Positions 3,312 through 25,242 of a stretch of DNA of 44,171 nucleotides are shown here, in pieces. The position numbers and the translations under genes were made by a program. Source of the stretch: a virus. Numbering within the stretch: position 1 is the stretch's first letter; each line of letters starts with the position of its first letter. The notes under the pieces are model-generated. The model worked only from the letters and a program-made list of their open reading frames with translations. It was not told the DNA's origin and did not search any database. The stretch is taken from IMG/VR virus record IMGVR_UViG_3300046519_000322, positions 1-44,171 of that record; one strand, given 5' to 3'.

Positions 3312-3703
3312 ACCGGGTCCTCCTGTGCGGGCGGCGGCGCCTGGTGCGCCCTCGCCCCTTGGGGGTGGACGGGGTGTGGCGAACAGGAGGGCAACCTGGG
3401 AGCCGTCGGTGGCAACAGATTGGAGAAGGAGGTGTGTAGACCTCATGAAGGGGAGAACCGATGGCCAGTGGTTCGGCACAATGCGAGATAAGGTCTCCGC
3501 TTGTCAGCCGAAGCGGAGGGTCCTCTTCCTCGCTTTGGCGACAAATAGACTTATTCTAAATTTACCGATACCGTTCATCCGGCGCGTCGTTGAACGATGC
3601 GACGTCCCGCAGACGACATGCAGAGAGCCCCGGCCGACCTTCCTGGCAAGGAATCGGGTCGGCCGGGGCTCGGCTCCGGTCTACGTCAGCGGTAGATGGC
3701 GGT
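3312..3703. other. Long leader/intergenic region with CAAGGGG element and AT-rich putative promoter
   Basis: This 392-bp stretch has no convincing gene on either strand. It holds the CCCCCAAGGGGCGAG element of the protease gene (3353-3368), a short inverted repeat CACACC/GGTGTG (3309-3314 and 3373-3378) that includes the GTG start, and a small hairpin CCGCTT/AAGCGG near 3500. At 3541-3570 there is a strikingly AT-rich patch whose minus strand contains TAGAAT (3553-3558), a plausible -10 with only a weak -35 (CGGATG at 3576-3581). A strong terminator lies at 3625-3671. I read it as the promoter and long 5' leader of the protease gene. Confidence 0.5.
3625..3671 (-). terminator. Intrinsic terminator-like hairpin after the small membrane protein gene
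   Basis: GAGCCCCGGCCGAC (3625-3638) pairs perfectly with 3658-3671 around a 19-nt loop, a 14-bp GC-rich stem about 30 nt past the stop of the 3704-4006 gene. There is no T-tract, which is common in actinobacterial terminators. Confidence 0.75.
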
Positions 3704-4006
3704 CTACGGCCGGTCTTCCGGAGTGGGATCCGACGTGGCGGTCGCCGGATCGGGGGTGCTGGCCTTGCGGTGCCGTCCCGTGTAGGTCGGCCTGGCAGTG
3801 GAGCCGAGGAGTAGCCCCGCGAGCGGCCAGCGTGACTGAAGCAGGTGGGCGAGCGTGTAGTACGCGGCGCCGAGGACCACGGTCAGCAGGCCGGTGAGGT
3901 TCTGCGTGAACTCGGCGCTGGCGTGGACGTTGTGCGAGGCGAGGAACGCCAGGACGAAGCCGACAGCCATCGGAACGACCGTACGGACAAGAGCGGGAGT
4001 AGGCAC
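3704..4006 (-). CDS. Small two-TM membrane protein, holin-like
   Basis: The 100-residue protein has two hydrophobic segments (about residues 6-25, LVRTVVPMAVGFVLAFLASH, and 37-57, LTGLLTVVLGAAYYTLAHLLQ) and a basic, Pro/Thr-rich tail. This is the usual build of actinophage holins and holin-like proteins. I chose GTG at 4006 because AAGGAG lies 6 nt upstream and the CAAGGGGCGA leader element sits just beyond, as for neighbouring late genes. An upstream ATG at 4111 with GGGGGAGG is the alternative and would add 35 residues of no recognisable character. It ends at a strong terminator and is divergent from the XRE cassette. Holin function is inferred from size and topology only. Confidence 0.6.
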   Translation of the reverse strand: MPTPALVRTVVPMAVGFVLAFLASHNVHASAEFTQNLTGLLTVVLGAAYYTLAHLLQSRWPLAGLLLGSTARPTYTGRHRKASTPDPATATSDPTPEDRP

Positions 4007-4030: not shown

Positions 4031-4046
4031 CTTCGCCCCTTGACGG
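4031..4046 (-). promoter_or_regulatory. CAAGGGG leader element of the holin-like gene
   Basis: The minus strand reads CCGTCAAGGGGCGAAG. The GGGG can pair with CCCC about 8 nt downstream (AGGGG..CCCC) and GGGCC with GGCCC outside it, forming a leader hairpin just before the AAGGAG of the gene starting at 4006. Confidence 0.55.
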
Positions 4047-4188
4047 CCCGCAGGTACGCCCGGACAGCACCGGGCCCCGGGGATTCGGGCGGCCGTCACG
4101 GCTGTGCTCATGATGGATCGCCTCCCCCGTCAGCTCGTGTCTGTCAGTTTGCTGAGCTGATCGTATGACGCCGGGTGGTACTGGTGTC

Positions 4189-7275: not shown

Positions 7276-9482
7276 GTGGTGTCATCCTCCTGTGCCGCCA
7301 GGACGTGCTCCAGGTCGGCGTAGTGGGTCCCCTTGATGTCCAGGCGGTCGAGGTTCGCCGCCCGCACCCCCTCACCCTCGTTGATCAGCGCCTGCTGCTC
7401 AGCGAGAGAGAAGTCCTTCAGCGCCTGCCGCTTGAGGCCCGCCGTCATCGACGGCGTCAGGTCCGACGCCTCATCCGTCGGCACCGCCCCGTCCGTCGAG
7501 GGCAGCGCACCCTCCGGCTCGTCGTGCAGCTCCGCCTCCGTGCCGCCGGGCTCGAACAGCGCCGCCTCCAGACCCCCGTGGGCGTACGACTGCAGCGGCA
7601 GCTGCCGGTTCCAGCCCGCCGGGTCCCCGCCCGCGAGCGGTCCGGCCGACGCCGGGTTCTCCCAGGGCCTCTTCGGCGCCGTGGCTCCCGGCGCCTTGGG
7701 CAGCAGGTACGACGTCCCCGACGGCTCCCCGAACGGCGCGTCGGCATTGGCCAGCGGCCGGATGCCCGCCACGCTCAAGGCCAGCAGCAGCTCCTCCTGG
7801 TCCTCACCGGCGACCACGGTCGCACGGGCGACGACCGACATGGGCGCCTGCTGCAGGGAAGCGTGAGCGGCATGGCCGCCGGGAAAGTCGTGACGCTGGT
7901 GCTCCCAGAGGTGGTCGAAGAGGCCGTCGCCCTTGAACGTCCGGAAGTCCTCGTCGGGCGTGTTCATGTTCTTCCAAGAGACGCCCTTGAGGTGCACCCC
8001 GGCCCCAGGGTGGAGCGGGATCTCACTCTCGCCGTGGTCGTGGTAGCCGTAGATCATTCCGTCGGACTGGTCCGGGTCCTCGTCGATCGCGTGCCGGTCA
8101 GGCTTCTCCGCGTGGAAGACGACCGACGTGGGGTGAGTGCCGTGCCGGTTCGGGCGATCGTCCATCTCGCCGAAGGACTCGGCCACGCCGTGGTTGTCCG
8201 TCCAGTGGCGTCCCAGGCCCTCACTGCCCCGGGCCAGGTCGCTGTGCGGGAGTGACTTCATCAGGTGCTGGGCGCGCTCGTGCATCGGGCGGGACTCGTC
8301 GTGGACGATCGCGTGATCCTCGGGGCGCAGATGGACGTTGACGCCCCGGTGGATATCGCCAAGACCTTCGTGGATGCTGTCCCACTCGTTCGACTTCCGC
8401 TGCTTCTCCGCAAAGTAGTCGTGGTCGCCGTGTTCTTCGGCGTCCATGTCCCACATGGACGGCTCGGGGGCGTCCCACGAGGAGAGCTTGCGAGCGGTCG
8501 CCGGGGCGAGCCGGTTGGTGTCGGCGTCGATGTCGTAGCGGACGACGACATGGCGGGGTACCCAGGTGGGCTTGTGCTCGTCGGCGTTGACGTCGCGGCC
8601 GAACATGCCCCTCGACTGGGCCTCGTACTGCAGGGCCAGCGCGTGGGAGCACATGCGCCCGGCGAACCGGCTGAAGTCGTCGTCGGCGCCCCAGTGGTAG
8701 GCGCCCCACTTGCAGCCGCAGGACCAAGAGTGCGCGGCCACCTTGCCCGGCATGCGCTGCAGGCCGGTCTCGTAGACGTGGTGGTCGCCCTTGACCTCGG
8801 CGTAGACCAGGCCGTCGGAGGCGAGGGTGACGCGCAGGCGGCCCTCGGAGCGGATCCGCTTGGCCTTGGCCACCACGTCGCGCCAGGCGGCCGTGATGTG
8901 GAAGCGGAAGTCGGTGTCAGCGGCGGCCGTCACGACCAGGTCGGAGAAGAGGGCGGACGCCTTCTTGGCCCACGGCGGCGCGTCGTCGTCGCCGTCGCTG
9001 GAGTCGTAGTCATCCTTGTCGTCGGAGTCGTCGTCCGAGTCCTTGGAGTCGTTTTCTCCGGAGTCGTCGTCGTTCTCCGAGTCGTCCGAATCCGGCTCGT
9101 CGCTGTCGCTGTCGGCAAAGGGGTTCTTGCCCGCCGTGACGAACTGGCGGGCCGGGTCCGGGCGCTCGACGAGGATCTGGGACAGCTCCGGGTAGTCGAC
9201 GGCCGCCGTCTGCTCCATGGCCTCGGCGGTGATCGGCGCCGGGCTGAGCTGGGAGGCCGTGTACCGGCCGCCACCCAGACCTCGGTCCAGCACGACCTCG
9301 TACTCCTCGGAGCCGGGGAAGGGGCCGTCCTCGACGTGCTTGACGACGCCGGTGACACCGTCGATCGTCTGTACCCGCTGCTCGGGCTTGTACTCCCAGT
9401 AGTCCTCGGAGCGCACCGCGAGACGCTGCACGCCCAGGGTCTGGTGCTCCAGGCGCTCGCTGCGCTCGAACTTGCCGCCCAC
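7263..9482 (-). CDS. Virion-associated protein with SWIM-type zinc finger and ADP-ribosyltransferase-like domain
   Basis: The 739-residue protein starts at GTG 9482 with GGGAGG 5 nt upstream; this beats a longer ATG at 9548, which lies upstream of the leader element. Residues 1-115 form a small domain, and 122-170 are almost pure Asp/Ser/Glu. Residues 253-285 carry SWSCGCKWG..MCSHALAL, the CxC..CxH pattern of a SWIM zinc finger. Residues 375-505 have the order R-[S/T]-ExE of ADP-ribosyltransferases: DIHRGVNV (Arg379), LGRHWTDNHGVAESFG (Thr428) and HGESEIPLHPGAGVHLKGV (Glu485/Glu487). The C-terminal 200 residues are Pro/Gly/Ala rich. The gene sits among virion genes, so the protein may be injected or act late. 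The ART assignment is inference from motif order; the SWIM finger is seen directly. Confidence 0.65.
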   Translation of the reverse strand: MGGKFERSERLEHQTLGVQRLAVRSEDYWEYKPEQRVQTIDGVTGVVKHVEDGPFPGSEEYEVVLDRGLGGGRYTASQLSPAPITAEAMEQTAAVDYPELSQILVERPDPARQFVTAGKNPFADSDSDEPDSDDSENDDDSGENDSKDSDDDSDDKDDYDSSDGDDDAPPWAKKASALFSDLVVTAAADTDFRFHITAAWRDVVAKAKRIRSEGRLRVTLASDGLVYAEVKGDHHVYETGLQRMPGKVAAHSWSCGCKWGAYHWGADDDFSRFAGRMCSHALALQYEAQSRGMFGRDVNADEHKPTWVPRHVVVRYDIDADTNRLAPATARKLSSWDAPEPSMWDMDAEEHGDHDYFAEKQRKSNEWDSIHEGLGDIHRGVNVHLRPEDHAIVHDESRPMHERAQHLMKSLPHSDLARGSEGLGRHWTDNHGVAESFGEMDDRPNRHGTHPTSVVFHAEKPDRHAIDEDPDQSDGMIYGYHDHGESEIPLHPGAGVHLKGVSWKNMNTPDEDFRTFKGDGLFDHLWEHQRHDFPGGHAAHASLQQAPMSVVARATVVAGEDQEELLLALSVAGIRPLANADAPFGEPSGTSYLLPKAPGATAPKRPWENPASAGPLAGGDPAGWNRQLPLQSYAHGGLEAALFEPGGTEAELHDEPEGALPSTDGAVPTDEASDLTPSMTAGLKRQALKDFSLAEQQALINEGEGVRAANLDRLDIKGTHYADLEHVLAAQEDDTTWLD
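8973..9119 (-). repeat. Asp/Ser-coding low-complexity tract
   Basis: About 49 codons encode nearly only Asp, Ser and Glu (residues ~122-170 of the SWIM/ART-like protein), using GAC/TCC/GAG-type triplets. It probably forms a flexible acidic linker. Triplet repetition makes it prone to length change. Confidence 0.8.
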
Positions 9483-9540
9483 CGGCGCCTCCCTCAACGA
9501 CCGAAACCCTTCAGCCCTTGGGGGTCGCTGCCGGTGGGGC
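9477..9540 (-). promoter_or_regulatory. Nested leader hairpin burying the GTG start of the SWIM/ART-like gene
   Basis: GCCCACCGGC (9477-9486), which includes the start codon at 9480-9482, is complementary to GCCGGTGGGGC (9530-9540) apart from one extra G. Inside it CGACC (9498-9502) pairs with GGTCG (9523-9527), and the loop holds the CCCCCAAGGGCTGA element (9511-9526). Confidence 0.6.
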
Positions 9541-9555
9541 GACAGCAAGGGGCAT

Positions 9556-9924
9556 TCAGTGGAAGACGGCGAACAGAGAGATGGCGGCGATGATCAGGGA
9601 GATGCCTGGGATGATGCCCTTGTAGAGGAAGTCGCGGCGGCCTTGCTGGCGGGAGCGCTCCTCTTCGGAGCGGGAGCGCGCCTCTTCGGACGCTTCCTCC
9701 TCCAGCTTCTTCACCGCCTCTTCCAGGTGGTCGACGCGCTGCTGCAGGAGACGCTTTTCTGCTTCGAAGTGATCGCGGGTAACGAAGCCGTCCAGGCGCT
9801 TCTTGACGTCGTTCAGCTCCTGCTTGATCTGCCCGTATGTCAGGCTGACGCGTTCGCGAGTGTTGTCCGAGTCACGCTCGATCAGCCGCCACAGCTCCCC
9901 GATGCTCTGGGGTTCGGTCGTCAT
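9556..9924 (-). CDS. Coiled-coil protein with C-terminal membrane anchor, holin/spanin-like
   Basis: The 122-residue protein starts at ATG 9924 with AGGAG 9 nt upstream. Residues 15-95 are a charged heptad-rich coiled coil (YGQIKQELNDVKKRLDGF..LLQQRVDHLEEAVKKLEEEASEEARSRSEEERSR). Residues ~104-121 form a single hydrophobic segment, IIPGISLIIAAISLFAVF. This architecture is common for the second membrane protein next to actinophage endolysins. It lies directly downstream of the endolysin gene, separated by a terminator, and has its own CAAGGGGTGA leader element. A lysis role is inferred from topology and position. Confidence 0.65.
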   Translation of the reverse strand: MTTEPQSIGELWRLIERDSDNTRERVSLTYGQIKQELNDVKKRLDGFVTRDHFEAEKRLLQQRVDHLEEAVKKLEEEASEEARSRSEEERSRQQGRRDFLYKGIIPGISLIIAAISLFAVFH

Positions 9925-9950: not shown

Positions 9951-9967
9951 TCCTCACCCCTTGGCGG
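9951..9967 (-). promoter_or_regulatory. CAAGGGGTGA leader element of the coiled-coil membrane gene
   Basis: The minus strand reads CCGCCAAGGGGTGAGGA. Its GGGGTG can pair with CACCCC about 6 nt downstream, placing a hairpin just ahead of the CTAGGAG ribosome site. Confidence 0.55.
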
Positions 9968-9992
9968 CAGTGCTCAGTGGTCCAGACAGGGC

Positions 9993-10030
9993 GAAGGCCC
10001 GGATTGCGGACGATCACAATCCGGGCCTTC
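9993..10030 (-). terminator. Terminator after the endolysin gene
   Basis: GAAGGCCCGGATTG (9993-10006) and CAATCCGGGCCTTC (10017-10030) form a perfect 14-bp stem with a 10-nt loop, 11 nt beyond the endolysin stop. Confidence 0.8.
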
Positions 10031-10040
10031 ACTGTGGGTG

Positions 10041-10916
10041 TTACTTCTTGCGCAGACCGTTGGCGACCTCGAAGGCGTACTGCCAGGTCTTCGGGCCGCA
10101 CAGGCCGTCGGCCGGGCCGAGCGCCGACAGGTAGTGCTGCTGCAGCGCCTTGACCTTCTTCAGGTCGATGGATGACATCGTCTCGGACGGGCCGACGGCG
10201 TACTCCGGGCCCCAGTTGCCCTTGTCGAGCCACTTCTGCAGCTGCAGGGCGTACTTGTTCCTCGCGCCGAGCCTGAAGTACTCACGGCCGGGGAAGGCCG
10301 GGCACTTCGGGGTGCTCGGGGTCGGCTTGCTCGGCGTGGGCGGAGTCGGCGGCTTGGGAGCGACCGGGGCCGACCAGCGCCAGGAGGCGACCGCCTTGCC
10401 GCCGCGCGGGTCGGCAGGGTCGGCCGTGGGCGGGCAGACGCCGTCGGGGAAGTGCGGGGCGAAGTATCCGGCGACCTTGGTGGCGCGGCGGGCGGTGACG
10501 TGGGACCAGACGCCGTTGCCCTGGCCGTTGTCCTCGGACCCGGTCTTGATCGAGTTCCCGCCCTTGGTGTACACCCAGGTCTCGTCGAAGCCGACGACGA
10601 TCTCAGTGTGCGCGCCGTTCGAGAAGTCGACGAGCGCTCCCACCGAGGGGTACTCGGACCACAGGCCGTGCTGCTTGGCGTAGGCCGCCATGGCCGCCAC
10701 GGAGGCTGTCTTGGGCACGATCGCATCGAGGCCGACGTCGTGGAACATGTCCCAGTCGAAGATCATGCACCACGCGACGCCGTCCCAGCCGTACTCCTTG
10801 CCGAACGGGGTGTGGTTGTCCCAGCCCTCGACGGAGTTCCAGGTCTCGTAGATCTTCTCGGGTATGGACTGGACGTGGTCGACGAGGCGGCGCCAGTCGG
10901 GGGTCGAATCGGTCAC
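10041..10916 (-). CDS. Endolysin: CHAP-like amidase with C-terminal peptidoglycan-binding domain
   Basis: The 291-residue protein has no signal peptide. The N-terminal ~155 residues match the CHAP-like cysteine hydrolase pattern of Streptomyces phages: DGVAWCMIFDW (Cys50), GAHTEIVVGF (His103) and a following VYTKGGNS polar residue. A Pro/Thr/Lys linker (residues ~182-203, PPTPPTPSKPTPS) leads to a peptidoglycan_binding_1-like domain (YALQLQKWLDKGNWGPEY..VKALQQHYLSALGPADGLCGPKTWQYAF). It should cleave host wall peptidoglycan at lysis. The GTG start at 10914-10916 lies in the 3' arm of a 14-bp inverted repeat, so translation is probably restrained until late. A second CHAP enzyme is encoded immediately upstream. 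Confidence 0.85.
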   Translation of the reverse strand: MTDSTPDWRRLVDHVQSIPEKIYETWNSVEGWDNHTPFGKEYGWDGVAWCMIFDWDMFHDVGLDAIVPKTASVAAMAAYAKQHGLWSEYPSVGALVDFSNGAHTEIVVGFDETWVYTKGGNSIKTGSEDNGQGNGVWSHVTARRATKVAGYFAPHFPDGVCPPTADPADPRGGKAVASWRWSAPVAPKPPTPPTPSKPTPSTPKCPAFPGREYFRLGARNKYALQLQKWLDKGNWGPEYAVGPSETMSSIDLKKVKALQQHYLSALGPADGLCGPKTWQYAFEVANGLRKK

Positions 10917-10971
10917 GGGTTCCTCCCGGAGGGTGGTGAGATCTCACCCCTTCGGTTGGAACCCGTGACCG
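10910..10971 (-). promoter_or_regulatory. Nested inverted repeat sequestering the endolysin start
   Basis: CGGTCACGGGTTCC (10910-10923) is perfectly complementary to 10958-10971. The minus-strand 3' arm contains the GTG start and follows directly on GGGAGG. The loop holds a second perfect palindrome GGTGAGATCTCACC (10935-10948), overlapping the GAAGGGGTGAG element (10943-10956). It can also act as the terminator of the upstream CHAP gene, which stops at 10981. Confidence 0.8.
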
Positions 10972-10980
10972 AGACAGCAA

Positions 10981-11778
10981 TCAGTGGCTGTGAGGTACCT
11001 GCAGGGCCCGCCAGATGGTCTCGTTGGGCACGCCGGTGTACGCGCCGCCAGGAGAGCCGCACGTCACGTGCCAGTTGCCCCACGCGGTGAGGTCGCCGGA
11101 GCCGATGTCGGCGGTCGGCGTGTAGCTGCCTGCACCGACCGCGATCAGGCGCTGGGCTGCAGCCAGGACGAGCGGCGACGTCCGGCCGATGTCGAACCAG
11201 TCGGCGCCGGGGTATGGCGCGTAGGCCGCCGCCGTGCCGGAGGACGTCTTGAGCAGGGTGCCGTCGTCGACCCAGCCCGGGTCGGCGGTCACCATCGGGC
11301 TGCAGTACTTCGGGTATCCGTAGCCGTAGACGTTGGTGTCGGAGCGGTTGCGCACCCGCAGGTAGACGCCGTCGCCCTCGGCCGCACCGGTGGTGTTTGA
11401 ATTGCCTTCTATCGTCCAGATCTGGGTGGAGTTGTAGGCATACACCAGGCCGGTGTGGTCACCGCCGTTGGTGCCCAGCATGACCTGCGCGCCGACCGCC
11501 GGGTACCAGCTCCACCGGTTCCAGGACTGGTAGGTGTTGATGACCTCCAGGCAGTCGGGGCTGTTGGGGATGATGCCGACATCACCGGCCCGGTAGGCCA
11601 GCCACAGCAGGAAGATGACGCACCAGGACTGGCCGTCGTACCCGGCCATCCCGGGCGTCTCCTTGGCGTACTTGTTCAGGTTCGACCAGGTGTTGGAGAC
11701 ATAGTCCTCCTGGTACTTGATGGCGGCTTCCTGCTGCCCGAGTTCGAACAGCGTCTGGGGCGCGATTGCGGCTACCAC
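10981..11778 (-). CDS. Second CHAP-like peptidoglycan hydrolase, tail-associated or accessory lysin
   Basis: The 265-residue protein begins at GTG 11778, five nt after GGAG and 15 nt past the tail-spike stop. A longer upstream extension of the frame overlaps the spike gene and is rejected. Catalytic pattern: GYDGQSWCVIFLLWLAY (Cys53), GGDHTGLVYAYN (His108), TIEGNSN (Glu124/Asn126). The C-terminus (WFDIGRTSPLVLAAAQRLIAVGAGSYTP..WGNWHVTCG) resembles a divergent copy of the wall-binding segment of the endolysin next door, so the two genes look like diverged duplicates. Its place after the tail spike suggests it may be virion-associated, opening the wall at infection, but this is inference. Confidence 0.78.
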   Translation of the reverse strand: MVAAIAPQTLFELGQQEAAIKYQEDYVSNTWSNLNKYAKETPGMAGYDGQSWCVIFLLWLAYRAGDVGIIPNSPDCLEVINTYQSWNRWSWYPAVGAQVMLGTNGGDHTGLVYAYNSTQIWTIEGNSNTTGAAEGDGVYLRVRNRSDTNVYGYGYPKYCSPMVTADPGWVDDGTLLKTSSGTAAAYAPYPGADWFDIGRTSPLVLAAAQRLIAVGAGSYTPTADIGSGDLTAWGNWHVTCGSPGGAYTGVPNETIWRALQVPHSH

Positions 11779-17020: not shown

Positions 17021-17053
17021 GGTGGCTCACCCCTTGGGGGTGGGCGAGCCGCC
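17021..17053 (-). promoter_or_regulatory. Leader hairpin with CAAGGGGTGA element before the portal gene
   Basis: GGTGGCTC (17021-17028) pairs with GAGCCGCC (17046-17053) with one G-U, enclosing CACCCC/GGGGTG. The minus strand carries CACCCCCAAGGGGTGAGC. The ribosome site CACAGGAGG lies just downstream and stays unpaired. Confidence 0.6.
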
Positions 17054-17067
17054 ACAGACAGGGCCGA

Positions 17068-19731: not shown

Positions 19732-21897
19732 TCAGGCGCCCTTTCGCTCGGCGAGGAGGCCCGACTGCACGCGTCGGCGGAACGCAGCCGCCGTCGGGGA
19801 CAGGCCGGAGCCGGAGTTGTACGCGGACGCCATGCCGCTGTCGGGTATGGTCACCGGCTGGCCCTGCGGCACGGCCGCCGAGGACGGCACGACCGGCTGG
19901 CCCATCGGCTCGGCCCCGTTGTAGGGGGCGGCACCGGCCGGGGCGGCTGCGTCCATCTGTCCCGCGAGCGGGCCGGGCTTGCCGGGGCCGTTGATCGGGG
20001 TGTCGCCGGACGGCGACGGCGAGGTGGACGGGTTGGTGGTGGCCAGGTCGATCCCGGTGGCGGCCTGGACCTGCAGGTAGGTGCCATCGGTGGGCAGCGC
20101 CTGCGCGGCGGCCACCTTGTGGGTCAGCTCCCGGTGCTGGGCGATCCGGCGGCCCAGGGCGGGCTCGACGGACGTCAAGGCCGCGTGCGCGGACAGCCAC
20201 GCACCGCGCGAGTGCGGGTTGTCGGTGAACCCGGCGTAGATACCGGCCTCCAGCTCCGGCGAGCCGGGCCGGACCACCGGAGTGCCCTCCTTCCAGCGGG
20301 CCGCGTACTTGTAGCCCTTCTGGAAGTCCGGGTGCTGCATGTCCTGCCGGGACGCCACGCGACGCGAGGCGAACGCGGGGTGCTTCAGGGACTGCCCGTT
20401 GTCACCGCCCATGGAGTACGGCACGTCCTGCGCGGGCGCGGCCGGGGCAGTGCTGGTGTAGCCCTGGGTGTACTGGGGCGCGGCGTGTGCGTCACCGAAC
20501 GAGGGCGCCGTGTCTGCCGCGCGGGCGTCCGCAGCGCCGTCACCGGCCTGCCCGACGTTCCTGGGCGGCGTGGAGCGCGGCGAGTTGGCGATGTTCGGCT
20601 CGATGATCTGGTTCGGCTGGGTCCACTGGTCGGCCCGCCGCTGCAGGGAGGCGTGCGGCTGGTGGCCGGAGGAGACCTGGCCGCCCTGGTCGTACTGGGC
20701 GTCGCCGGTCATGCCGTGGGCCTCGCCGCCCTCGTCCAGCGTCCACGGGAACGCCACGGTGGTCGGCAGCGGCGTCTTGTGGTCCTGGTCGTGGACGTCG
20801 ACCGACTGCTGGACCTGCTCCAGGCCGGACGCGGCCGTCTTGGGCCGCTGGGAGACGTCACCGGCCTCCTGGGTCTGCTCGGTCTCCTCCTGCGCCGGTT
20901 CGGCCTGCGGAGTGGCGTTGGTCGGCCCGCCCTGCGCCGGGAGGTCCCCGGAGATGGAGTGGCCGCCCGCGCGCTCCGGCGAGGAGCTGCCGCCACCGCC
21001 GGACAGGGACGGCTCGGCGCCGGGGCCGGTCAGCTGGCCGCTGCTGTCGTGGCCGCCGGGCTGCTCGGGGCTGGAGTTCCCGCCCTGCTGGGACATCTGG
21101 ATCGCCGGGGCCGCGCTGGAGGTCTCCGTGCCGGAGACGGCGGTGTTGATGTCGGCGACCGGCGGCGCGAAGTTGTCGAAGACGTCCGGGGGCAGCGGGG
21201 TCGGCTTGTTGGTGACGCCGTCCGGCGCGGTGGTCTGCTGGATCTGGTCCACGCCCGAGGCGGCCTCGACGGTGACGGCCTGGGTGCGCAGGAACGTCGC
21301 GTAGCCGACGAAGATGTCCTCGGCCGTCTGGGACTGCGCGCCGAGGCTCGCGCTGACCTGGCGGGCCTTGCCGACGGCCTGCTCGGCGAACTCCTCCTGG
21401 TCGGCCTTGACGAAGTCCGGCACGCCGCCGAACCACAGCGCGGCCTGCGCGATCAGCTGGCCGTGGTCGAACGGGGTGTCGGCGACCTCGGTGTCCAGCC
21501 AGTCGGACGCGGACGTGCCGCGCGCGACGGAGGAGACAACCGGGGTGAACCTCTCCCGGATCGAGGTGTCGGCCAGGTCCGCCTCGTGGTCCAGCGCGGC
21601 GGTGCGCTGCGCGGCACGGTCGAACTCGTGAAGCTGGGCGACGAGCTTGAGCTGCTCGTCGAACGATGCGGCACGCTCGATCCGCTGCAGCAGCTCGGAG
21701 CGGTCAGGGCTGGGCATGCTGTTCTCCTCCTGCGCGCCCGCGCGGCGCATCCGGCGACGTACGGAACGGTCTTCGCGGGAGGGGTTGCGGCGTGGGCCGC
21801 GCGCAGCAGGACGCATCGGCTCGCGAGAGGACTCCTCGGCGGTCCAGGACTCGTCCGTCCACAGGTCGTCCGGTGCGTCGTGTCGAGCGTCGTACAT
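19732..21897 (-). CDS. Large Gln/Ser/Pro-rich hypothetical virion-region protein
   Basis: The 721-residue protein starts at ATG 21897 with AAGGAGG about 10 nt upstream; a GTG nine bases earlier is too close to that site. After a basic, Arg-rich N-terminus (MRPAARGPRRNPSREDRSVRRRMRRAG) comes a helical domain (SELLQRIERAASFDEQLKLVAQLHEFDRAAQRTAALDHEADLADTSIRERFTPVVSSVARG..) at residues ~60-220. It has the look of a domain found in actinophage proteins encoded near the portal. Residues 230-500 are low complexity. Residues ~520-640 form another ordered part (HPAFASRRVASRQDMQHPDFQKGYKYAARWKEG..LEAGIYAGFTDNPHSRGAWLSAHAAL). Function unknown. Confidence 0.7.
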   Translation of the reverse strand: MYDARHDAPDDLWTDESWTAEESSREPMRPAARGPRRNPSREDRSVRRRMRRAGAQEENSMPSPDRSELLQRIERAASFDEQLKLVAQLHEFDRAAQRTAALDHEADLADTSIRERFTPVVSSVARGTSASDWLDTEVADTPFDHGQLIAQAALWFGGVPDFVKADQEEFAEQAVGKARQVSASLGAQSQTAEDIFVGYATFLRTQAVTVEAASGVDQIQQTTAPDGVTNKPTPLPPDVFDNFAPPVADINTAVSGTETSSAAPAIQMSQQGGNSSPEQPGGHDSSGQLTGPGAEPSLSGGGGSSSPERAGGHSISGDLPAQGGPTNATPQAEPAQEETEQTQEAGDVSQRPKTAASGLEQVQQSVDVHDQDHKTPLPTTVAFPWTLDEGGEAHGMTGDAQYDQGGQVSSGHQPHASLQRRADQWTQPNQIIEPNIANSPRSTPPRNVGQAGDGAADARAADTAPSFGDAHAAPQYTQGYTSTAPAAPAQDVPYSMGGDNGQSLKHPAFASRRVASRQDMQHPDFQKGYKYAARWKEGTPVVRPGSPELEAGIYAGFTDNPHSRGAWLSAHAALTSVEPALGRRIAQHRELTHKVAAAQALPTDGTYLQVQAATGIDLATTNPSTSPSPSGDTPINGPGKPGPLAGQMDAAAPAGAAPYNGAEPMGQPVVPSSAAVPQGQPVTIPDSGMASAYNSGSGLSPTAAAFRRRVQSGLLAERKGA

Positions 21898-21903
21898 GCA
21901 AAT

Positions 21904-21944
21904 CACCCCTCCTTCCGCCCCTTGAGGGGGCCGAGAGAGGGGTG
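21904..21944 (-). promoter_or_regulatory. Nested leader hairpin overlapping the Shine-Dalgarno of the 721-aa gene
   Basis: CACCCCTC (21904-21911) pairs with GAGGGGTG (21937-21944), and within it GCCCC pairs with GGGGC around TTGA (21917-21931). On the minus strand the outer 3' arm is part of the GGAGGGG ribosome site and the loop carries CTCAAGGGGCGG, the late leader element. Confidence 0.65.
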
Positions 21945-21964
21945 AGACAGGAAGAGGGGGTGGG

Positions 21965-22784: not shown

Positions 22785-22798
22785 GGCGAGGTGAGTCC

Positions 22799-22855
22799 TT
22801 ATCGTGGACGATAACGATTAGCTCGATGATAGTTATCGTCCACGATAAGAGTCAA
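22799..22855 (-). promoter_or_regulatory. Near-consensus promoter with two 16-bp palindromic operators
   Basis: On the minus strand TTGACT (22850-22855) and TATCAT (22826-22831) are separated by 18 nt. That spacer is filled by TTATCGTGGACGATAA (22833-22848). A second copy in the opposite sense lies at 22799-22814, covering about +5 to +20. Each copy is palindromic except for its central GG/CC, and the centres are 34 bp apart. Confidence 0.88.
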
Positions 22856-24690: not shown

Positions 24691-25242
24691 TCAGCGCATT
24701 TCGTAACGAGATTCGGTGGGCCCGAACTGGTTCTGGTAGTGGTTGCCCGCGCTTCCGTACGGCCTCGTGGGGACGGCCTGCATGGGGATGAGGCACAGCT
24801 GGGCGATCGGCATCAGCCGCCGGAGCCGGATCGGCTTGCCGGACAGGTTGGCGATCTCCAGCGTGATCTGTCCGCTGAACCCCGGGTCGATGAAGCCCGC
24901 CGTCACGTGCACGGTCAGGCCCAACCGGCCCAGGGAACTCTTTCCTTCGACCCTCGCCGCCAGGTCGGGCGGCAGGGTCACACGCTCGACGGTGCAGCCG
25001 AGAAGGAAGGCTCCTGGCTCCAGCAGCCAGCCGTCCCCGTCGATCTCGTGGAGCGTGGTGTGCCCGGCTCGCACGTCCGCCACGTCGATCGCCGAACCCT
25101 CGGGGAACGGCCGATCCAACGTACGCACGTACTGGTCGAGCAGCATGTCCACGGAGGCGGGCTGTACCCGCTCCGGGTCGAACGGGGAGATGTCAAAATC
25201 TCCCGAGATGATGCGGTCTTTGATCTGCCAGTCGGCGAGCAT
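24691..25242 (-). CDS. dcd: dCTP deaminase
   Basis: The 183-residue protein carries the family blocks: VQPASVDMLLDQYVRTL, LEPGAFLLGCTVERVTLP, GKSSLGRLGL (residues 100-109, with Ser102 and Arg106 matching conserved active-site residues) and TAGFIDPGFSGQITLEIAN with catalytic Glu129. It ends IAQLCLIPM..PTRPYGSAGNHYQNQFGPTES, the nucleotide-contacting tail. It converts dCTP to dUTP, feeding dTTP synthesis for phage DNA replication. ATG 25242 has AAAGGGG upstream and is preferred to an in-frame ATG 21 nt earlier that would place the leader element in the coding region. Whether it is mono- or bifunctional cannot be told. Confidence 0.92.
   Translation of the reverse strand: MLADWQIKDRIISGDFDISPFDPERVQPASVDMLLDQYVRTLDRPFPEGSAIDVADVRAGHTTLHEIDGDGWLLEPGAFLLGCTVERVTLPPDLAARVEGKSSLGRLGLTVHVTAGFIDPGFSGQITLEIANLSGKPIRLRRLMPIAQLCLIPMQAVPTRPYGSAGNHYQNQFGPTESRYEMR

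Follow-up and report, generated by a model that had tools for sequence, protein, structure and literature searches.

The window, by which we mean the whole stretch of 44,171 nt analysed here, carries on its minus strand two genes, at 10041-10916 and 10981-11778, both matching PHROGs endolysin families, and we therefore considered them as two tandem CHAP-type lysin genes; the pair occupies 10041-11778 and phrog_9589 is matched by both. The features around the start codon of the downstream gene, the endolysin, are the following (SD, Shine-Dalgarno sequence):

10041-10916, minus strand: endolysin gene (291 aa), GTG start at 10914-10916; PHROGs endolysin phrog_9589, 7e-25
10909-10923, minus strand: 3′ arm of the stem, containing the GTG and the end of the SD; perfect 15-bp complement of 10958-10972
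10922-10927, minus strand: SD, GGGAGG, from the sequence
10935-10948, no strand assigned: inner palindrome GGTGAGATCTCACC in the loop, from the sequence; its left half overlaps the conserved AAGGGGTGA
10947-10952, minus strand: AAGGGG, right half of a bipartite motif, from the motif search
10958-10972, minus strand: 5′ arm of the stem, between both half-motifs, from the inverted repeat
10974-10977, minus strand: CTGT, left half of the motif, 21 nt before AAGGGG, from the motif search
10981-11778, minus strand: upstream CHAP-type lysin gene; phrog_9589, 6e-51

Precisely, TCGGTCACGGGTTCC at 10909-10923 and GGAACCCGTGACCGA at 10958-10972 (both read on the plus strand) are exact reverse complements over 15 bp, separated by a loop of 34 nt, and among the inverted repeats found whose arms are no more than 60 nt from each other, the element that they delimit (10909-10972) is the longest. 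An earlier note on this DNA had described a perfect stem of 14 bp at the endolysin start; the stem is there and is one pair longer. The GTG does lie in the 3′ arm of the mRNA, as the note had stated, the endolysin being encoded on the minus strand, and the same GTG is the annotated start of the ortholog FNV58_RS01345 of plasmid pRLB1-9.1, described below. The GGGAGG, which had been said to abut the GTG, is present 5 nt before it and belongs partly to the 3′ arm and partly to the loop.

The fold of the stem has a z value of -4.48, and none of 200 shuffles was as good. From Markov simulation, 0.02 perfect 15-mer inverted repeats with a loop of at most 60 nt would be expected in a window; 3 places were observed, one of which is the endolysin stem. 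No family of Rfam 15 matched in the window at the gathering score. Elsewhere, at 22798-22849, a 21-bp inverted repeat (95% complementary, with more A+T than the genome) lies between minus-strand genes.

The second palindrome reported for the loop, GGTGAGATCTCACC, occurs at 10935-10948 but is not conserved as a palindrome: its left half, GGGGTGAG, coincides with the conserved right half of the genome-wide motif described below, and its right half is missing in two relatives (G005 and G011). We rejected GGTGAGATCTCACC as a conserved protein site, as it is not conserved in these two genomes; the database matches of its exact 18-mer are to unrelated bacteria.

Relatives and a bipartite motif

Relatives of the endolysin were collected from viral contigs. 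As best relative we identified G006, which is plasmid pRLB1-9.1 of Streptomyces sp. RLB1-9 (NZ_CP041653.1, circular, 154,158 bp) and has genes for a portal, baseplate J, a capsid protein, DNA polymerase III alpha, ParA and ParB. Although filed as a bacterial plasmid, it is, judging from its genes, probably a large phage-plasmid, that is a phage living as a plasmid. The same record has an ATP-grasp RiPP gene pair at 69862-71032.

Close relatives keep the stem, and G003, G005, G009 and G011 have a lysin-gene hairpin with largely different arms and a different upstream gene. At the endolysin, the z value of the hairpin is -5.2 in G000, -5.5 in G006, -3.7 in G005, -4.5 in G009 and -1.4, hence weak, in G003; at the lysin-like gene of G011 it is -4.9. 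The proposal of the earlier note that the structure hides the start is supported, in that the SD and GTG of read-through RNA are predicted to be sequestered and that five lineages have, before the lysin gene, an SD-sequestering hairpin, hereafter the lock.

All the lysin-gene hairpin loci have in common CCAAGGGGTGAG or a variant of it, with a CTGT upstream at near-constant distance. The consensus over 64 distinct sites is TTSCTGTC-N~17-CYCAAGGGGYGA, with strong conservation only in CTGT and AAGGGGYGA. CTGT and AAGGGG were demanded by the search, so that their 100% conservation is by construction, whereas the flanks (C at -1 in 92% of the 64 sites, Y at +6, G at +7 in 100%, A at +8 in 88%) and the narrow gap are not. 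The gap between CTGT and AAGGGG is 21, 22 or 23 nt at 13, 38 and 13 of the 64 sites, respectively; in the fetched regions the corresponding numbers on the sense strand are 13, 43 and 15, that is 71 matches versus 2 antisense.

The pattern CTGT-N20-25-AAGGGG has 6 copies in the window, each on the minus strand; several larger records have 11-14, nearly all on the coding strand. The reversed-pattern controls gave 0 matches apart from 2 in one genome. In the window and in related contigs of large Streptomyces phages or phage-plasmids such as pRLB1-9.1, with a frequency of about 6-25 per genome, the motif stands on the coding strand 13-53 nt ahead of start codons, mostly of late genes, and the genes that have it before an SD-bearing start include those of the portal, the endolysin, baseplate J and a sheath-like protein. 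When variants were allowed, a position-weight scan of most of pRLB1-9.1 scored about 22 places higher than 17 bits, of which a single one was not on the plus strand; the Markov-simulated background had 0 places above 14 bits. Besides the endolysin copy, the window contains the following copies, together with one adjoining hairpin:

21918-21950, minus strand: copy with lock stem (9 bp, z -3.3), before the gene starting at 21897
17030-17061, minus strand: copy before the portal gene (ATG 17008), hairpin z -2.5
9957-9989, minus strand: copy before the gene at 9924, no lock, from the motif search
9993-10030, minus strand: strong terminator-like hairpin with no T-run, directly before the 9957-9989 copy; z about -8, 14-bp perfect core
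4036-4067, minus strand: copy before the gene at 4006, at a transcription-unit head, no lock (z 0.4)
3355-3386, minus strand: copy before a GTG about 43 nt past AAGGGG, from the motif search
9514-9545, minus strand: variant copy (CTGTC...CAAGGGCTGA) before the gene at 9482, 26.4 bits
25263-25294, minus strand: variant copy (CTGTC...CATGGGGTGG) before the gene at 25242, 20.2 bits

Counterparts of the hairpin at 9993-10030 occur at the same place in G001, G003, G006, G009 and G011.

In a broad motif scan of viral contigs the hits were mostly single chance matches, and we considered as relatives the contigs having several matches or the same downstream genes; further soil contigs carry the motif together with shared genes. 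Blast of the element against named phages gave chance matches only. The portal protein has kin in Rhodococcus E3, Gordonia Stormageddon and mycobacteriophages, and the motif is absent from the first two, which are portal-gene relatives outside Streptomyces. Other phages with related endolysins (L007, L010 and L013) are without the motif and have ordinary terminator-like hairpins with T-runs just upstream of the gene.

Predicted pairing of start regions in read-through RNA

All the fold and accessibility values are predictions for the RNA alone at 37 °C, and the comparisons for pRLB1-9.1 were made within that one genome. In this genome the 24 motif starts had a mean fold z of -2.0; for a set of 33 other late starts, from which they differ with p 1e-4, the mean was 0.1, and for 100 further starts it was -0.06. 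Over 67 sites, the SD and start codon were paired for 46% of the time with the inter-motif interval, for 5% with the 26 nt before CTGT and for less than 1% with AAGGGG, while at control starts (n=78) pairing with the matching interval was 7%. The arm-pair energy was -26.1 kcal for native pairs versus -19.4 kcal for swapped ones, with a p-value of 5e-10 that, like the others computed across sites, overstates independence because orthologous sites were counted per genome; 18 of 64 native pairs exceeded 99% of the swaps.

If the RNA is made to begin at AAGGGG, the accessibility of SD and start codon rises from 0.23 to 0.50 in pRLB1-9.1, versus 0.404 to 0.407 for 32 controls (p 3e-6), and from 0.19 to 0.50 at the endolysin of the window, again as predicted for RNA alone at 37 °C. 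5′ arms are found solely in the inter-motif interval, and in some gene groups they drift by one-sided changes. The lock is missing at some motif sites, inconsistent in the tail sheath group and weak at the endolysin of G003. According to these folding models, the SD and/or the start codon are sequestered by the hairpin in long read-through RNA. A degenerate copy of the motif at 151463 of G006 (L035) has GTGT for CTGT and a 5′ arm that no longer fits the lock; its G003 ortholog is intact.

A putative late promoter and its alternatives

We favour, with somewhat better than even confidence, a reading in which the stem locks the translation of read-through RNA and is coupled to a late promoter that carries the DNA for the 5′ arm in its interior; the promoter activity, the start sites, the reader and the timing are what we infer. 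Precisely, CTGT and, 21-23 bp further on, AAGGGGYGA would form a DNA element directing initiation at or just past AAGGGG, and the DNA between the half-sites would encode the hairpin 5′ arm. Read-through RNA having both arms would fold, hiding SD and start codon, and would be silent, while RNA begun at the motif would be without the 5′ arm and hence open and translatable. The logic of T4 gene e would be used here genome-wide, for many late genes. Transcripts that start inside the loop, which the earlier note had taken to speak against a start-hiding structure, would by analogy with T4 gene e (PMC3014915) complete the lock, and the evidence suggests such starts.

More tentatively, the motif might define a new late transcription class of Streptomyces phage-plasmids, with a CTGT-N22-AAGGGGYGA promoter used by a phage-modified RNA polymerase that starts at or near AAGGGG, with inter-motif DNA repeatedly made into anti-SD arms, and with roughly half of the late genes silent on read-through RNA and translatable solely from transcripts of their own; we consider this wider proposal possible rather than probable. 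No report of the motif or of the lock was found in the literature searched, the coverage of which left most subscription journals outside.

The spacing of the motif is maintained at sites having no lock and the register of the stem relative to CTGT ranges from -4 to +16, which argues against the motif being a mere consequence of the hairpin. The motif is also found at the heads of transcription units (4036-4067 in the window, after divergent genes; 138820 and 10357 in pRLB1-9.1) and immediately 3′ of strong terminator-like hairpins (the groups before 9924, MSGTTPR and MPVQQ), positions in which a promoter is required in the short remaining gap. No sigma-70-like site was found around the endolysin.

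These observations also bear on an explanation that we regard as unlikely, namely that the motif is a pure RNA element, in which CUGUC at the foot of the hairpin and AAGGGGUGA in or near the loop contact a phage RNA-binding protein or the ribosome, shutting or opening the hairpin in a manner likened to coat-protein operators, RegA targets and Mu Com. The strand specificity of the motif, its constant proximity to starts and, at locked sites, the position of CTGT beside the stem foot and of AAGGGG in the loop would all suit such an element, as would the resemblance of AAGGGGUGA to an SD, GGGGUGA being able to pair with the 16S anti-SD. However, the motif and its 22 ± 1 spacing persist without a hairpin, AAGGGG in the RNA is variously unpaired, paired with a 5′ CCCC or paired with a 3′ CCCC, and at unit heads and after terminator-like hairpins a promoter is needed anyway.

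As regards the reader of the putative promoter, candidates are FNV58_RS00795, a 130-aa protein of pRLB1-9.1 having only sigma region 4 (Pfam PF08281, 26.6 bits with a cut-off of 25.7), a match that recurs in related genomes, and FNV58_RS00700, a WhiB protein encoded by the same plasmid. A phage sigma-70 region 2 was looked for and none was found, and the search for a single-subunit RNA polymerase was uninformative, its control having matched nowhere. Two facts sit less easily with a promoter. AAGGGGYGA is G+C-rich for a -10 or melting element, which counts against this reading; moreover, in the ortholog pair pRLB1-9.1 5715 and G003 L089:3108 the SD starts 1 nt past AAGGGG, so that a conventional start 7 nt downstream would lose the SD and the start would have to fall within AAGGGG, which is unusual for a sigma-type promoter.

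A further explanation is translational coupling, in which ribosomes finishing the CHAP gene would melt the 5′ arm and so enable translation of the endolysin. The CHAP stop codon (10981-10983) lies 8 nt ahead of the 5′ arm, and at most locked sites the upstream reading frame ends 2-20 nt before CTGT. We judge this quite unlikely, since a terminating ribosome would probably reach only part of the 15-bp stem, the upstream gene varies by lineage while the SD-sequestering hairpin is kept, and the bipartite motif is left unexplained.

The motif could also serve as the operator of a repressor, or of a partition protein, by which late genes are silenced in the plasmid state, as stoperators do, with the hairpins as an extra safeguard. 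The many oriented intergenic copies fit this picture, as does the state of pRLB1-9.1, a circular resident plasmid that encodes ParA and ParB, but a plain operator needs no fixed place 13-53 nt before starts on one strand; in the window the L5 stoperator consensus is not enriched, the 13-bp cluster A stoperator repeats (GGTGGCTGTCAAG) being at chance level. We consider an operator very improbable.

Least probable of all is that the stem is an RNase III processing site or the terminator of the CHAP message, which the earlier note had proposed to be one element with the lock, for although the stem is G+C-rich and at a gene boundary, and Streptomyces terminators may be without a T-run, 10909-10972 has neither a T-run after the stem nor a terminator call, the 3′ arm overlaps the gene, with the SD and start codon inside it, the 5′ arms keep to the inter-motif interval, and what look like the terminators of this genome are separate, stronger hairpins upstream of CTGT, such as the better terminator-like one at the neighbouring gene junction (9993-10030).

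The favoured reading, a lock combined with a late promoter, can be set against the presence of such terminators. At the level of sites, lock and preceding terminator show a trade-off (rho -0.30, p 0.014, the sites not being independent); across gene groups it is not significant (rho -0.14, p 0.59). Neither group E, at the unit head (z near 0 in 5 of 6), nor group D, after terminators, has the lock, which fits because little read-through is expected there. A division of labour, with the lock only where no terminator precedes, is suggestive.

The T4 lysozyme lock is a textbook curiosity that concerns a handful of genes. If the reading proposed here is confirmed, the same type of lock logic arose in unrelated actinophages as a genome-wide rule, and a ready-made motif becomes available to locate late promoters in large Streptomyces phages, for which none is described here. 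It would also point to a way in which a phage maintained as a plasmid could prevent translation of its lysis and virion genes when read-through is leaky; the prediction can be tested directly at over 20 sites of a single sequenced strain, Streptomyces sp. RLB1-9.

Comparison with known systems

Mu mom/Com and the translational operators of phage coat proteins each act on one gene via a known RNA-binding protein. As in the present case, the start region of a phage gene is sequestered in a hairpin; the difference is that those systems depend on that protein and concern a single gene, whereas here many genes are involved.

In cluster K mycobacteriophages the SAS/ESAS, an oriented repeat, stands just before many start codons, partly with inverted repeats (PMC3203893), and the position just upstream of many start codons is shared with our motif. 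However, SAS belongs to non-structural genes, and its authors report no covariation of the inverted repeats at the RNA level (PMC3203893), whereas here mostly late genes are concerned and RNA pairing is clearly predicted. The sequence also differs: the 13-bp SAS, GGGATAGGAGCCC, has 1 match with 2 mismatches in the window, which is chance level.

The T4 genes e (lysozyme), soc, 49 and I-TevI have a ribosome-binding-site hairpin with an internal late promoter (PMC3014915, PMC2988022). As in the gene e type, the SD and start are predicted to be hidden in read-through RNA, a promoter-like motif lies over the DNA of the 5′ arm, a lysis enzyme gene is among the users, and in silico the SD becomes free once the RNA is cut back to the motif. 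The bipartite motif, a putative promoter, brackets the 5′ arm. The differences are that the phages are unrelated, that the motif is G+C-rich and bipartite, the T4 late promoter TATAAATA having 0 matches in the window with at most 1 mismatch, and that many late genes, virion genes included, are involved here. By its working principle the arrangement is T4 e-like; it does not belong to the late-promoter system of T4.
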